From Rhizorhabdus histidinilytica (GTDB lineage: Bacteria > Pseudomonadota > Alphaproteobacteria > Sphingomonadales > Sphingomonadaceae), in the NCBI RefSeq assembly GCF_900167915.1, contig NZ_FUYM01000005.1:310001-374000 (forward strand): 64,000 nucleotides of DNA, in the 5' to 3' direction. Below, in pieces: positions 41,538 to 60,716 of the stretch (positions are counted from its first letter, which is position 1; every line of letters starts with the position of its first letter). The translations under genes and the position numbers were made by a program. The notes under the pieces were generated by a model that was not told where the DNA came from, made no database searches, and saw only the letters and a list, made by a program, of their open reading frames with translations.

Positions 41538-42242
41538 TCAGCCCGTTGCACCCTCCAACCAGAGCGGCGCATCAAGCTTCTCAACAAAGGCCTTGTGTCG
41601 TTCCAGTTCCTCCTCGCTCGCAAAATGGGGGCGGATCGCCCGGATCGTCCTGCTCGCCGCCACGACCGCACGGGGGGTGGCGACGACAACGACCTCCTCG
41701 ACCACGGCCTCGCCGATCGACAGGCCGATCTGGCGGCCGCCGGTCAGCTCGACATAGAGTTGGGCAAGGAGCTGTGCATCGAGCAGCGCGCCATGCTTGA
41801 CCCGGTGGCTGCGGTCGATCCCGTAGCGGCTGCACAATGCGTCGAGGCTGTGCTTGGCGCCCGGGTGGATCTTGCGGGCGATCTGCAGCGTGTCGACCAT
41901 CCGGCCCATGTCGACGATCGGCCGGCCGCAGGCGCCCAGCTCCCAGTTGAGGAAGCCGAAGTCGAAGCTGGCATTATGCGCGACCAGCGGTGCGTCGCCG
42001 ATGAAGTCGAGCAGCTCCTCGACCTTGTCGGCGAACAGCGGCTTGTCGCTCAGGAAGCGTTCGGACAGGCCGTGGACCTGTTCGGCCTCGAACGGCATCG
42101 GCCGCTGCGGGTTGAAATAGCAGTGGAAGCTGTTGCCAGTTTCGACCCGGTTGACCAGTTCGACGCAGCCTATCTCGACCAGCCGATCGCCCGTTGCGGG
42201 GTTCAGGCCGGTTGTTTCGGTGTCGAAGACGATTTCACGCAT
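41538..42242 (-). CDS. dnaQ: DNA polymerase III epsilon subunit (proofreading exonuclease)
   Basis: 234-residue 3'-5' exonuclease of the replicative polymerase. Exo I FDTETTGLNP (D7-x-E9), Exo II VAHNASFDFGFLNWEL and Exo III region DRSHRVKHGALLDAQLLAQL (H...D) are all intact; the C-terminal tail contacts the alpha subunit. Its ATG overlaps the coaE end by eight bases, so coaE and dnaQ are coupled, an arrangement common in alphaproteobacteria (aroE-coaE-dnaQ). Confidence 0.96.
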   Translation of the reverse strand: MREIVFDTETTGLNPATGDRLVEIGCVELVNRVETGNSFHCYFNPQRPMPFEAEQVHGLSERFLSDKPLFADKVEELLDFIGDAPLVAHNASFDFGFLNWELGACGRPIVDMGRMVDTLQIARKIHPGAKHSLDALCSRYGIDRSHRVKHGALLDAQLLAQLYVELTGGRQIGLSIGEAVVEEVVVVATPRAVVAASRTIRAIRPHFASEEELERHKAFVEKLDAPLWLEGATG

Positions 42243-44354: not shown

Positions 44355-45179
44355 TCACTTCGCTTCTTCCTTCGCCGAGCGTTCGTTGACGAGATTGATG
44401 ATCGCGGCCGCCGTCTCCTCGATCGAGCGGCGGGTGACGTCGATCACCGGCCATCCCTGGTCGGAGAAGATGCGCCGCGCGAAGCTCAGTTCGGCGGCGA
44501 CCTTCTCATGGTCGACATAGGCGGTCTCGGGCGACTGGTTGAGCGACAGCAACCGGTTGCGGCGGATCTGGACGAGCCGCTCGGGGCTGGTGGTCAATCC
44601 GACGATCAACGGGTGGACCAGCGCGTAGAAGGAGGGCGGCGGCGGGGATTCGACCACCAGCGGCACATTGGCGACCTTGTAGCCGCGATTGGCGAGGTAG
44701 ATCGAAGTCGGCGTCTTCGACGATCGCGATACGCCGGTCAGGATGATGTCCGCCTCCTCCCAGTCCTCGGAGGCGATGCCGTCGTCATGCGCGATCGTGT
44801 ACTGGATCGCCTCGACCCGCGCATAATAGGCGGCATCCAGGATGTGCTGCCGTCCCGGCCGGGCAAGCGCCTGCTGGCCGAGCAGCTGCGACAAGGCGTC
44901 GATCACCGGATCGAGGGCCGAGACGCTGGGCAGACCGAGCGCGTGGCACCGCGATTCGAGCCGGGTGCGGATGTCGTTGTTGACCAGGGTGAAGATCACC
45001 AGCCCCGGCCGCTGCGCGATTTCGAGAAGGATGCGGTCGAGGTGCCCCTGGCTGCGCACCATCGGCCAGAAATGCTTGATCGTCTCGACTCCCTCGAACT
45101 GGGCGAGCCCCGCCTTGGCGATGTTCTCGAGCGTCTCGCCGGTCGAATCCGACAGGAGGTGGAGATGGAGGCGGATCAT
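44355..45179 (-). CDS. ppsR: Bifunctional kinase/pyrophosphorylase regulating pyruvate, water/phosphate dikinase (DUF299)
   Basis: 274-residue regulatory protein that phosphorylates (with ADP) and dephosphorylates PEP synthase or PPDK. The P-loop GVSRSSKTPTSIYLAN near residue 150 is diagnostic; LHLLSDSTGETLENIAKAGL at the N-terminus and VGLTTSPERLVQIRRNRL are also conserved. Its start borders the proposed replication origin, and it is transcribed away from it. Neighbouring hemE on the other side reproduces the alphaproteobacterial origin context. Confidence 0.94.
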   Translation of the reverse strand: MIRLHLHLLSDSTGETLENIAKAGLAQFEGVETIKHFWPMVRSQGHLDRILLEIAQRPGLVIFTLVNNDIRTRLESRCHALGLPSVSALDPVIDALSQLLGQQALARPGRQHILDAAYYARVEAIQYTIAHDDGIASEDWEEADIILTGVSRSSKTPTSIYLANRGYKVANVPLVVESPPPPSFYALVHPLIVGLTTSPERLVQIRRNRLLSLNQSPETAYVDHEKVAAELSFARRIFSDQGWPVIDVTRRSIEETAAAIINLVNERSAKEEAK

Positions 45180-45506
45180 CGATCGTTTGATCCACTGACG
45201 TGGAGCGCGATACCCAAGGGGACGGATCTGTGGAAAACCATGCGGATGGAGCTAGCGGAAGGGCGGGGACGCTTTCAAGCGGCGGATTCATCCCCGCTGA
45301 CCGAGCCGATCTCCGGCGATCCATCCACAGGGGATAGGATCGATCCACAGGCTGTGGATAATGGGAATGGCGTGAGGGACTCGGAAGGGCGCCGCGATTC
45401 CGCGTGAGTCAAGCTGTTGGCAATCGCGCCAACTGTGAATAAACCCCGGCACCCAACGCCCTACAAACCTCTTCAGTTCCTCTTCAAAGAATCAATAAGG
45501 AAGATA
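45180..45506. other. oriC: Probable chromosomal replication origin (ppsR-hemE interval)
   Basis: 327 bases without a gene. DnaA-box-like sequences (consensus TTATCCACA): 45353-45361 TGTGGATAA perfect on the reverse strand; 45229-45237 and 45434-45442 with one mismatch; 45188-45196, 45321-45329 and 45341-45349 with two. ATCCACAG (45343-45350) and CTGTGGAT (45352-45359) form an inverted pair. GANTC sites lie at 45285, 45378, 45396, 45406 and 45489. Bases 45411-45506 are about 47% G+C by hand count, well below the surroundings, and may be the unwinding element. The hemE promoter must also lie here. In Caulobacter the origin lies beside hemE. No clear paired CtrA box (TTAA-N7-TTAA) was seen. Confidence 0.82.
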
Positions 45507-46541
45507 ATGGCTGCCCTTCCCGCCGAGACGCGCCCCCTGCTCGCCGTGCTCCGGGGTGAGCGCCGCGATCCCCCGCCGGTCTGGCTCATGCGCCAGGCTG
45601 GCCGCTATCTTCCCGAATATCGCGCGCTGCGGGAAACCAAGGGCGGCTTCCTCGAGCTGGCCTATGACAGCGACGCCGCAGCCGAGATCACCTTGCAGCC
45701 GATCCGCCGCTTCGGCTTCGACGGCGCCATCCTCTTCTCCGACATCCTGATCATTCCGCACGCGCTGGGCCAGGACCTGCGCTTCGAGGCGGGCGAGGGG
45801 CCACGCCTGTCGCCAACCCTGGTCGACCGGACGCTCGCCGATCTCGAACCGGTGCCGGCGCGGCTCGAACCGATCTACGGCACCGTCCGCCGGGTCCGCG
45901 CGGCGCTGCCGTCCGAGACGACCTTCCTCGGCTTCGCGGGCAGCCCATGGACCGTCGCCACCTATATGGTGGCCGGGCAAGGCAGCCGCGAGCAGGCCGA
46001 GACACGGCGCAAGGCCTATCGCGATCCTTCCGGCTTCCAGGCGATCGTCGACGCGCTGGTCGATGCCACTGCCGACTATCTGTCGAAGCAGATCGAAGCG
46101 GGAGTCGACGCGGTGCAGCTGTTCGACAGCTGGGCTGGCAGCCTCGCCCCGCGCGAGTTCGAACGCTGGGTGATCGCCCCCACCGCCGAGCTGGTCCGCC
46201 GGCTTCATGCGCGGCATCCGGGCGTGCCGGTGATCGGCTTTCCGAAGGGTGCGGGTGGCAAGCTCCCCGCCTATGCGCGTGAGACCGGCGTCGACGCGGT
46301 CGGGCTCGATGAGACCGTCGACCCGGCCTGGGCCCACGCCAACCTGCCCCAGGGATTGACTGTGCAAGGCAATCTCGACCCGCTCGCGCTGGTATCGGGG
46401 GGCGAGGGGCTCGACGCCGCGGTCGATGCGATCCTGGGGGCTTTCCCCGGGCGCCCGCATGTGTTCAACCTGGGACACGGAATCCTGCTCGACACGCCGA
46501 TCGCCCATGTCGAGCGGCTGCTCGCGCGAGTCAGGGGATGA
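45507..46541 (+). CDS. hemE: Uroporphyrinogen decarboxylase
   Basis: 344-residue enzyme converting uroporphyrinogen III to coproporphyrinogen III in haem synthesis. Signature WLMRQAGRYLPEYR (substrate Arg), ILFSDILIIPHALG (with the catalytic Asp), GFAGSPWTVATYMVAGQGS, and VQLFDSWAGSLAP, ending with FNLGHGILLDTPI. ATG 45507 is preceded by AAGGAAG. It borders the origin on the right and is transcribed away from it; hemJ follows after four bases. Confidence 0.97.
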   Translation: MAALPAETRPLLAVLRGERRDPPPVWLMRQAGRYLPEYRALRETKGGFLELAYDSDAAAEITLQPIRRFGFDGAILFSDILIIPHALGQDLRFEAGEGPRLSPTLVDRTLADLEPVPARLEPIYGTVRRVRAALPSETTFLGFAGSPWTVATYMVAGQGSREQAETRRKAYRDPSGFQAIVDALVDATADYLSKQIEAGVDAVQLFDSWAGSLAPREFERWVIAPTAELVRRLHARHPGVPVIGFPKGAGGKLPAYARETGVDAVGLDETVDPAWAHANLPQGLTVQGNLDPLALVSGGEGLDAAVDAILGAFPGRPHVFNLGHGILLDTPIAHVERLLARVRG

Positions 46542-56480: not shown

Positions 56481-56496
56481 TGTTCCACGTGGAACA
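56481..56496. promoter_or_regulatory. parS: parS site 1
   Basis: TGTTCCACGTGGAACA, a perfect 16-base palindrome and the alphaproteobacterial variant of the ParB-binding centromere. Located in the 57-base gap between mnmE and mnmG, 2.5 kb before parA. Confidence 0.92.
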
Positions 56497-56534
56497 TTTT
56501 TGACTCCGGCGGCAGGGTCGGATAGCGCGCTCGC

Positions 56535-58394
56535 ATGGCGGACAGCTTCGATGTGATCGTGGTCGGCGGCGGCCATGCCGGCTGCGAGGCGGCGGCGGCG
56601 GCGGCGCGGATGGGCGCGCGCACCGCGCTCGTCAGCATGCGGCGCGACATGATCGGGGCCATGTCCTGCAACCCTGCGATCGGAGGACTCGGCAAGGGCC
56701 ATCTCGTTCGCGAGGTCGATGCCTGCGATGGGCTGATCGCCCGCGCCGCGGATCGTGCCGCGATCCATTATCGCATGCTCAACAGCAGCAAGGGCGCGGC
56801 GGTTCATGGGCCACGCATTCAGGCCGACCGCAAGCTCTATAAGGCAGCGATTCACGACCTGCTCGCCGAGCTCCCGATGCTGGAAATCATTGAAGGCGCG
56901 GCTGAGAGGTTGCTGGTTGAGGATGTTTCACGTGGAACATCCGGCCTGGTCCTGGCCGACGGGCGGAGGTTGACGGCACGAGCGGTGGTGCTTGCGACGG
57001 GAACCTTCCTCAACGCCAGGCTTCACTTCGGGATGGACTGCCGCGCCGGCGGACGTGTGGGGGAGGCGGCGGCCGTCGAACTTGCCGAGCAGCTGCGCGC
57101 CCTTGATCTGCCGATCGCCCGGCTCAAGACCGGGACTCCGCCGCGGCTCGATGGACGGACGATCGACTGGGCCCAGCTCGACCGCCAGCCTTCGGACGAG
57201 GGGAGGTGGACCTTCTCGGCGCTCACGCCGCGCCGCCTCGTTCCGCAGCTCGCCTGCGCGATCACCCGGACCAATCAGCGCACCCATGACGTGATCCGCG
57301 CTGGACTCGACCGGTCGCCGCTCTACTCGGGCGCGATAACCGGCGTCGGGCCGCGCTATTGCCCGTCGATCGAGGACAAGGTCCACCGCTTCGGCGATCG
57401 CGACGGGCACCAGATATTCCTCGAACCCGAGGGCCTCGACGATCACACCATCTATCCCAATGGCGTCTCGACCTCGCTGCCCGAGGATGTTCAACGCGCG
57501 ATGCTGCGGACCGTGCCGGGGCTCGAGCGGGTCGAGATTCTCCAGCCCGGCTATGCCGTCGAATATGATTATATCGATCCACGTGCGCTGACCGCCGGGC
57601 TTGGGCTGCGGGCTCTGCCGGGCCTGTTCTGCGCCGGGCAGATCAACGGCACCACCGGTTATGAGGAGGCCGCCGCGCAGGGGCTCGCCGCCGGGATGAA
57701 TGCAGCCGCCTTCGCGGCCGGCCAGCCCGAAATCCATTTCGACCGGGCGACCAGCTATATCGGCGTTATGATCGACGACCTTACGCTGCAGGGCGTGTCC
57801 GAACCTTATCGCATGCTCACCGCCCGCGCCGAGTATCGGCTGCGGCTGCGCGCCGACAACGCCGGCAGCCGCCTGACCGGCTGGGCAGACTCGCATGGCG
57901 CGATCTCGGCTACGCGCCGGATGTTCCACGTGGAACGTGAAGCGCACCGCATGGCTATGGCCGATCGCCTCGCGACGCGCATCGCCGGGTCAGGCGAGCT
58001 GGTCGCGGCCGGCGCGGCGGTCGCCGACGACCATGGCCGGCGGTCGCTGGCCGAGTGGCTGCGGTTCCCCGAGGTCGGCGACGCCACACTGATTGCCCTG
58101 GCGCCCGAGCTCGCCGCGGTCCCGGAGGATGTCCGCGCCGAGGTGATCCAGGACGGCCGCTACGCGCCCTATCTCGCTCGCCAGGACCAGGAGATCGCTC
58201 GGCTGCGCGCCGATGAGCGGATCGGTCTCGCCGCGATCGCGGACTATGGTGCGATCGCCGGACTGTCGAACGAGATGGTCGAGCGCCTCAACGTAGCGCG
58301 TCCCGCCGATCTCGCCGCGGCGGGGCGGGTGCGCGGCGTCACCCCGGCCGCGCTCGCCGCCATCATGGTCCACGCCCGGCGGCTCGCGGCATGA
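56535..58394 (+). CDS. mnmG: tRNA uridine-5-carboxymethylaminomethyl modification enzyme MnmG
   Basis: 619-residue FAD enzyme, partner of MnmE. FAD motif [20 protein letters not shown], then [45 protein letters not shown] and [21 protein letters not shown]-terminal tRNA-binding helical domain ending [15 protein letters not shown]. Length typical. Two parS sites lie inside it: 56924-56939, read as DVSRGT, and 57922-57937, read as FHVER; both fall in loops or variable regions. Overlaps rsmG by four bases. Confidence 0.97.
56924..56939. promoter_or_regulatory. parS: parS site 2, inside mnmG
   Basis: TGTTTCACGTGGAACA differs from site 1 at one base, giving an asymmetric TTTCACGTGGAA core that matches the Caulobacter consensus GTTTCACGTGGAAC. 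Read in frame as D-V-S-R-G-T. Confidence 0.9.
57922..57937. promoter_or_regulatory. parS: parS site 3, inside mnmG
   Basis: TGTTCCACGTGGAACG, 15 of 16 bases of site 1. Read in frame as M-F-H-V-E-R. Confidence 0.88.
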
Positions 58395-59044
58395 GCATGA
58401 CCGAGCAGGAGGCGCGCGCCTGGATCGAGGGGTGTGTTCCACGTGGAACAATGACGGGGCTGGAAAAATTCGTCGCGATGATCCTCGACGAGATGCCGCG
58501 ACAGAACCTCATCGCGGCCTCGACCGCCGAGCATATCTGGAGCCGCCATATCGTCGATTCGGCGCAGCTCGTGCCGATGGTCGGCGGGGGCGGTCCGCTG
58601 CGCTGGATCGATCTCGGTTCGGGCGCCGGCTTCCCCGGCATGGTCGTGGCGCTGATGCTGCCAGAGGTCCGCATGACGCTGGTCGAGTCGCGCCGCAAGC
58701 GGATCGACTTTCTGCGCTTCATGGCCGAATCGCTCGGTATCGCTGATCGGGTGGCGGTGGCGGGCCAGCGGCTCGAGATGCTCGACTCGAGCCCGTATGA
58801 CGTGATCAGCGCCCGGGCTTTCGCTCCGCTCGATCGGCTGTTGCCGCTCGCGCACCGTTTTTCGCACGATGCCACGCTCTGGCTGTTGCCGAAGGGACGT
58901 AGCGCTGCATCCGAACTGGAAGCCGTAACCACTTCGTGGCAGGGTGATTTCCGGGTCGTGCCAAGCAAGACCGACCCGGACGCGGCGATCATCGTCGCGT
59001 CGCAGGTTCAGCCGCAGGGCAAAGGTCAAAAGGGACGCCGATGA
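58391..59044 (+). CDS. rsmG: 16S rRNA (guanine527-N7)-methyltransferase RsmG
   Basis: 217-residue methyltransferase. Motif [41 protein letters not shown], then [20 protein letters not shown] and [35 protein letters not shown] is the usual opening block. A parS site near its start is read C-V-P-R-G-T, equivalent to the V-S-R-E-T found at this point in many RsmG proteins whose genes contain parS. Overlaps mnmG and parA by four bases each. Confidence 0.95.
58435..58450. promoter_or_regulatory. parS: parS site 4, inside rsmG
   Basis: TGTTCCACGTGGAACA, perfect and identical to site 1, 44 bases into rsmG and 0.6 kb before parA. Confidence 0.92.
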
Positions 59045-59816
59045 TCCGCATCGCGATCGCCAACCAGAAGGGCGGGGTGGGCAAGACGACCACCGCGATC
59101 AACCTCGCCACCGCGCTGGCGGCGACCGGCTGGCGGGTGCTGCTCGTCGACTTCGACCCGCAGGGCAACGCGTCGACCGGGCTCGGCGTCGAGCAGGCGT
59201 CGCGGGAGCGGTCGAGCTATGAGCTGCTTCGCCGCGACTGCTCGCTCGGCGAGGCGGTGGTCGCGACCAGGATCCCGCGGCTCGATATCGTGCCGGCGAC
59301 GGTCGACCTGACCGGCGCCGAGATCGAGCTGATCGACGTCGAGAAGCGTACCCACCGGCTCCACGATGCGCTCGCCCAGGACGAGAATCGCTGGGACGTC
59401 TGTCTGATCGATTGTCCGCCTTCGCTCGGCCTGTTGACCGTCAACGCGCTGGTCGCGGCGAACATGATGCTGGTGCCGCTGCAGTGCGAATTCTTCGCAC
59501 TGGAGGGGCTGACCCAGCTGCTCCAGACGATCGAGCGGGTGCGCGCGCGCTTCAATCCGCAGCTCTCGATCCTGGGAGTCGCGCTGACCATGTACGACCG
59601 GCGCAATCGGCTGTCCGAACAGGTGGCCGCCGATGTGCGCGATGTTCTGGGGAATGTGGTGTTCGATACGGTGATCCCGCGCAACGTCCGCCTGTCCGAA
59701 GCGCCGAGCCATGGTGTGCCGGCGCTGATCTACGACCATCGCTGCCCGGGGTCCGAGGCCTATATCGCCCTTGCGCGCGAGTGCATCGCCCGGCTCACCA
59801 ACAAGGCGCAGGCGGC

Positions 59817-59820
<4 letters not shown>
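59041..59820 (+). CDS. parA: Chromosome partitioning ATPase ParA
   Basis: 259-residue Walker-type ATPase that moves ParB-parS complexes to segregate the origin. Deviant Walker A NQKGGVGKTTTAINLATAL from residue 8, DFDPQGNASTGLG, Walker B LIDCPPSLGLLTVNALVAAN, and C-terminal IPRNVRLSEAPSHGVPALIY, all typical of chromosomal ParA/Soj. Overlaps rsmG (ATGA) and parB (ATGA), so rsmG-parA-parB are coupled. Distinct from MipZ at 6482. Confidence 0.97.

Positions 59821-60716
<896 letters not shown>

Follow-up and report, generated by a model that had tools for sequence, protein, structure and literature searches.

A probable chromosomal replication origin between ppsR and hemE in a Sphingomonadales bacterium, and its excess of GANTC sites

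The window analyzed here is a stretch of 64,000 nucleotides from Rhizorhabdus histidinilytica, in which a 327-base interval between the divergent genes ppsR and hemE carries DnaA boxes, GANTC sites and an A+T-rich stretch. A 9-mer with at most two mismatches from TTATCCACA was counted as a DnaA-box-like site. The features of the locus are, by window position:

44355..45179, minus strand: ppsR (DUF299, kinase/pyrophosphorylase), divergent left flank (Pfam PF03618, E 4.3e-92)
45180..45506, no strand: proposed oriC interval, the 327-base ppsR-hemE gap (from box cluster, skew and synteny)
45188..45196, plus strand: weak DnaA-box-like site TGATCCACT, 2 mismatches
45229..45237, minus strand: DnaA box TTTTCCACA, 1 mismatch
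45285..45289, no strand: GANTC site (motif scan)
45321..45329, plus strand: weak DnaA-box-like site CCATCCACA, 2 mismatches
45341..45349, plus strand: weak DnaA-box-like site CGATCCACA, left half of the inverted pair, 2 mismatches
45353..45361, minus strand: perfect DnaA box TTATCCACA, right half of the inverted pair, 0 mismatches
45378..45410, no strand: three GANTC sites that begin at 45378, 45396, and 45406, after the perfect box and before the A+T-rich stretch (motif scan)
45434..45442, minus strand: DnaA box TTATTCACA, 1 mismatch
45460..45506, no strand: A+T-rich stretch adjoining hemE, candidate unwinding element, 36.2% G+C, with a GANTC site at 45489
45507..46541, plus strand: hemE, uroporphyrinogen decarboxylase, right flank (Pfam PF01208, E 5.3e-113)

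The interval is bounded by the ppsR start at 45179 on the minus strand and the hemE ATG at 45507. The latter position is a choice; the mechanical open reading frame of hemE opens at a TTG at 45417, and homology to relatives is found only from residues 1-11 counted from 45507. With these edges, and with both flanking genes identified by their Pfam domains, the gene-free 327-base interval beside hemE that was described in an earlier, sequence-only reading of the window was confirmed. No Rfam family reached its gathering score in the window, and a structured RNA was therefore rejected. The position between hemE and a DUF299 gene (ppsR) is that of the alphaproteobacterial hemE-type oriC; for both Caulobacter and Rickettsia the origin is known to be located in the space that separates hemE from COG1806 (PMC1914354). 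The likeness of the hemE context to that of the Caulobacter origin, also proposed in that reading, holds as well, as hemE and the COG1806/DUF299 gene flank both (PMC1914354).

All six DnaA-box-like sequences expected in the interval, one of them perfect, were recovered (at 45188, 45229, 45321, 45341, 45353, and 45434), and so was the inverted DnaA-box pair at 45343-45359, which reads ATCCACAGGCTGTGGAT. As TCCACANNNTGTGGA the inverted pair is found once in the whole assembly (5,473,339 bases in 59 contigs). It could be argued that a gap of lower G+C content simply holds accidental box matches, as three of the six boxes carry two mismatches. However, when the contig was cut into 1252 tiles of 327 bp, a count of six loose boxes was reached by only one, i.e., the tile over this interval. 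The stricter sequence TTNTNCACA has 97 sites in the assembly, three of which lie within 214 bp at this interval only, and random placement of the 97 sites gave such a cluster anywhere in 21 of 20,000 trials. The box cluster is in other words unusual for the genome and, with gene order and boxes preserved among relatives (see below), an origin of the pattern by chance has a negligible probability. The perfect box alone is not over-represented, with 8 occurrences in the assembly vs. 17 for its reversed control. The downstream stretch described as having about 47% G+C was found to have 47.4% over 45410-45506, decreasing to 36.2% over 45460-45506, compared to 68.9% for the whole window, and this last segment is the candidate for unwinding.

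The arrangement is conserved among relatives, here the best 80 by hemE search. Among these 80, the named organism with the closest hemE was Sphingomonas sp. Root720, at 92% identity; Sphingomonadales names are carried by most of the 79 further matches listed. In 75 of the best 80 relatives hemE has a divergent ppsR as its neighbor, with a gap of about 260-420 bases as measured by homology edges. ppsR was not found in the other five: the contig of L017 stops 130 bases before hemE, and in L020, L024, L029, and L061 ppsR is absent from the stretch of the locus that was covered. Upstream of hemE there are six GANTC sites and one TTNTNCACA in each of L029 and L061, four GANTC sites and no box in L024, and neither in L020, where hemE may no longer be at the origin. 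In two records, L052 and L032 (titled Bacillus sp. 2B10 and Microvirga sp. SRT01), hemE is 70-72% identical to that of the window and adjoined by ppsR as in Sphingomonadales; these titles look wrong.

The gap set used below consists of the window and 74 relatives, leaving out the five without ppsR and L004, in which ppsR aligned only from residue 80. The TCCACA core was present in all 75 gaps, and 73 had two or more. The sequence TTNTNCACA was present in 60 gaps and absent from 15, with a mean of 1.55 per gap vs. 0.018 per 327-bp background window. A relaxed inverted pair, CCACA-N2-4-TGTG, occurred in 33 of 75 gaps but in only 4 of 3694 background windows, and the strict pair in 12 of 75 gaps. 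In the alignment of the 75 gaps the TGTGGA core of the box at 45229..45237 is marked as identical in at least 90%. Mean A+T content over the 75 gaps was highest in the final 40-60 bases before hemE.

GC skew was profiled in the strain over contig C30 (409,683 bp) and 400 kb of contig C24, i.e., about 0.81 of 5.47 Mb. Cumulative skew of C30 falls to a minimum at C30:351714 (window position 41714), 3.5 kb from the gap, and then rises, with six of six bins after 350 kb being positive. The skew is shallow (means -0.016 and +0.014), and the change-point statistic, with the best split at 351 kb, was matched by 21 of 5000 block permutations. An origin next to dnaA is a common arrangement in bacteria outside this class, and it is therefore conceivable that the origin adjoins dnaA here as well. 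The dnaA gene is located on another contig than the interval (C24:315016), and the 20-kb bin starting at dnaA is one of two slightly negative bins of C24 (-0.006). One Novosphingobium origin has been predicted near both hemE and a DnaA gene (PMC4059872). On the other hand, 18 of the 20 bins in the 400 kb around dnaA are positive, the skew climbs on both sides of dnaA with no minimum around it, and cumulative skew is lowest at the left end of the 400 kb. On each side of the dnaA domain of C24, about 16 kb separate it from the nearest TTNTNCACA site (C24:298608 and C24:331275). The same was seen in G010, a one-contig chromosome of the same family whose skew was sampled as 60 stretches of 20 kb. 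At this resolution its minimum is between 2,158,260 and 2,194,531, i.e., 14-50 kb from the ppsR-hemE gap (at about 2,208,500), and the maximum, near 470 kb, is separated from the minimum by almost half the chromosome, while its dnaA, at about position 500, is 1.17 Mb from the gap and about equally far from the skew minimum. As skew and box distribution both fail to support it, an origin near dnaA was rejected as extremely unlikely, and GC skew favors an origin at the interval, as the sequence-only reading had supposed.

The skew also bears on a third explanation, i.e., that boxes and GANTC sites belong to a promoter region that serves hemE and ppsR under cell-cycle control, with the origin being elsewhere. 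Caulobacter promoters are governed by DnaA, GcrA, and CcrM, and GANTC is over-represented intergenically in the class (PMC3973325, PMC8116508). A role as promoter only is nevertheless very unlikely, given a skew minimum at or near the interval both in the contig of the strain and in the one-contig relative. In addition, no sigma-70-like promoter was found at 45100-45600 by a simple scan, which is weak evidence for this class. It is possible that the interval has a promoter role in addition to the origin role. A plasmid origin was rejected, as there was no plasmid match for the gap among 72,556 plasmid records and the context is one of core genes.

A partition locus is found to the right of the interval:

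56481..58450, no strand: four parS-like sites (starts 56481, 56924, 57922, 58435), at most 1 mismatch from TGTTCCACGTGGAACA
59041..60716, plus strand: parA (Pfam AAA_31/CbiA) and parB (Pfam ParB_N, HTH_ParB, ParB_C)

The parA gene begins at 59041 and the frame of parB runs to 60716, with the true parB start being later than the listed TTG. Apart from the four parS-like sites, no sequence in the assembly comes within one mismatch of TGTTCCACGTGGAACA. One of the four is located in the short gap before the frame at 56535-58394, two are within that frame and one is in rsmG (58391-59044, Pfam GidB), so that three of the four are embedded in coding frames. parAB-parS had been placed 11 kb away; this distance stands for the nearest parS site (56481), while ParAB-parS taken together are 11-15 kb off.

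The CtrA box is TTAA-N7-TTAA, and the G-box of the Caulobacter origin, Cori, is TGATCCACA. Neither of these features of the Cori subtype was found: there is no CtrA box in the interval, not even a TTAA, and among the 75 gaps a full CtrA box was found in 1, a relaxed one in 3, and the G-box in none. Cori is otherwise similar, with the same two flanking genes, DnaA boxes, an A+T-rich region and a similar size (404 bp; PMC1914354) as well as several GANTC sites (PMC3973325), but it has moderate G-boxes and very weak W-boxes (PMC4468827) where a canonical DnaA box is found here. The Rickettsia prowazekii origin shares the flanking genes hemE and COG1806 (PMC1914354) but belongs to an A+T-rich genome, and Rickettsiales are a named exception to CcrM methylation (PMC11514494). 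Closer to the present strain, the origin of Sphingopyxis granuli TFA was predicted near hemE with DnaA boxes and a putative unwinding element, and most Sphingomonadaceae in DoriC have the origin predicted beside hemE with conserved gene order (PMC4741004). These oriC regions, including that of TFA, are from other species, and the excerpted text of PMC4741004 makes no mention of GANTC. Origins beside hemE are thus already known, and the interval is one more member.

Taking together the sequence anatomy, its uniqueness in the assembly, the conservation and the skew, the interval very probably serves this Sphingomonadales bacterium as its DnaA-dependent chromosomal origin (oriC). The C30 skew minimum, the lack of a minimum around dnaA and the skew of G010 all support the chromosomal origin first proposed from the sequence. 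The steps of binding, unwinding and firing can be predicted from the arrangement of sites. DnaA would bind mid-interval, at the perfect box and the inverted pair (45341-45361), and then spread over the weaker boxes, upon which the A+T-rich stretch next to hemE (45460-45506) would melt and the helicase be loaded there. The newly copied origin would then be moved by ParAB-parS, 11-15 kb off. In a second and more speculative layer, CcrM-methylated GANTC sites would turn hemimethylated upon passage of the fork, and hemimethylation could act on GcrA-dependent hemE transcription or on DnaA binding.

The number of GANTC sites in the proposed origin, here and in most related species examined, is unusual and goes beyond the earlier reading. 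There are 5 in the interval and up to 11 in about 300 bp among relatives. In the 75 Sphingomonadales gaps the excess of cognate methylation sites, a feature of a methylation-clocked origin, was 3.2-fold: 333 sites vs. a shuffle mean of 103 (sd 9.9, the largest of 200 shuffles being 130). The next-commonest of the 16 palindromic words of this form reached 170, making GANTC almost twofold higher. The mean was 4.44 per gap vs. 0.66 per background window. The excess is not a mere effect of lower G+C content, as windows of at most 60% G+C had a mean of 0.80 in this genome (119 windows, none with five or more) and 0.77 in relatives (762 windows), these control windows being chosen by G+C content and not by gene calls, so that promoters do not form a separate class in them. 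All four bases occur at similar frequency in the middle position (T 95, A 83, C 82, G 73), which fits the methylase site itself being kept. That the excess stems from one inherited word was weighed against this evenness and the 80 alignment columns at which sites start, and was rejected. GANTC starts at the columns of 45378, 45396, and 45406 in 48, 39, and 24 of the 75 gaps, respectively, and the three commonest columns account for 111 of the 333 sites. Among 53 representatives less than 65% identical to each other the mean was 4.30, and 45 had three or more; a count of 11 was found in four gaps, which form two pairs with shared site positions. GANTC is most frequent in the segment that runs from the perfect box to the A+T-rich stretch (147 of 333 sites in the bins 45360-45419), with a second peak adjoining hemE (59 in the last bin). 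Against this trend, the gaps of G010 and G125, of the same family, have only 2 and 1 sites. GANTC density alone does not mark an origin, as the 810 kb covered of this genome contain four further places with five or more sites within 327 bp, two of them with open frames listed. The densest of these, with 7 sites in 327 bp (C24:427045-427599), is within a 299-codon open frame and thus not in an evident gap.

The genome encodes CcrM (best match 6pbd, modification methylase CcrMI, E 8.6e-159), and a GcrA gene is found about 4 kb away on the same contig as the interval. For the class at large, 80 genomes were picked manually from 153 that bear hemE; a GcrA match was present for 40 of them, and the other 40 did not appear in the GcrA match list. 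A divergent ppsR was lacking in 23 (including one cut contig), which were removed, and G010 and G125, belonging to the same family, were kept apart. Outside Sphingomonadales, gaps with GcrA (n = 33) had 110 GANTC sites vs. 63 shuffled (ratio 1.74), and gaps without GcrA (n = 22) had 56 vs. 44 shuffled (sd 6.3, ratio 1.27), the groups being small, hand-chosen and unmatched for relatedness, the GcrA-negative label coming from one profile search, and three of the 22 GcrA-negative "gaps" spanning 864-1094 bases that may hold a gene. The intergenic GANTC excess of the class is above 1.5-fold (PMC3973325).

It may be speculated that Sphingomonadales origins are methylation-clocked, the cluster of CcrM sites signaling recent firing by hemimethylation and restraining refiring via GcrA or altered DnaA binding, although this is unlikely. 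In the same doubtful reading selection would act on the GA-N-TC word itself and keep it, with its highest density in the segment from the perfect DnaA box to the unwinding stretch. The E. coli oriC, which is subject to Dam/SeqA control, holds 11 GATC and resembles the interval in having many adenine-methylation sites in the origin, but methylase and site are different. The repABC origins of secondary replicons (Agrobacterium ori2) also have higher-than-expected GANTC numbers, and hemimethylation has been proposed to hold back refiring at ori2 (PMC11514494); these are however plasmid-type replicons, while the interval is located between chromosomal core genes and has no plasmid match. In contrast to Dam/SeqA control, deletion of ccrM left initiation normal in Caulobacter, where DNA content after rifampicin run-out was normal and the authors concluded that control of initiation does not need CcrM (PMC3973325). 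These data speak against methylation timing the origin in Caulobacter. Furthermore, an influence of CtrA on replication was reported for Sphingomonas melonis (PMC8116508), so the absence of CtrA boxes need not mean absence of CtrA control. This report and the G010 and G125 origins with one or two sites slightly lower the weight given to methylation clocking. The excerpts available from the open-licence literature were found to contain no mention of GANTC being in excess at the origins of Sphingomonadales.

An origin at this position fixes the chromosome start for the strain, which is of use in orienting the assembly and reading gene dosage, and it adds one case to the hemE rule. If the origin is indeed clocked by methylation, this would replace the CtrA boxes of Caulobacter Cori and the Dam/SeqA system of E. 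coli. The excess of GANTC sites and the absence of CtrA boxes raise the testable question of whether methylation is used in this order where Caulobacter uses CtrA.
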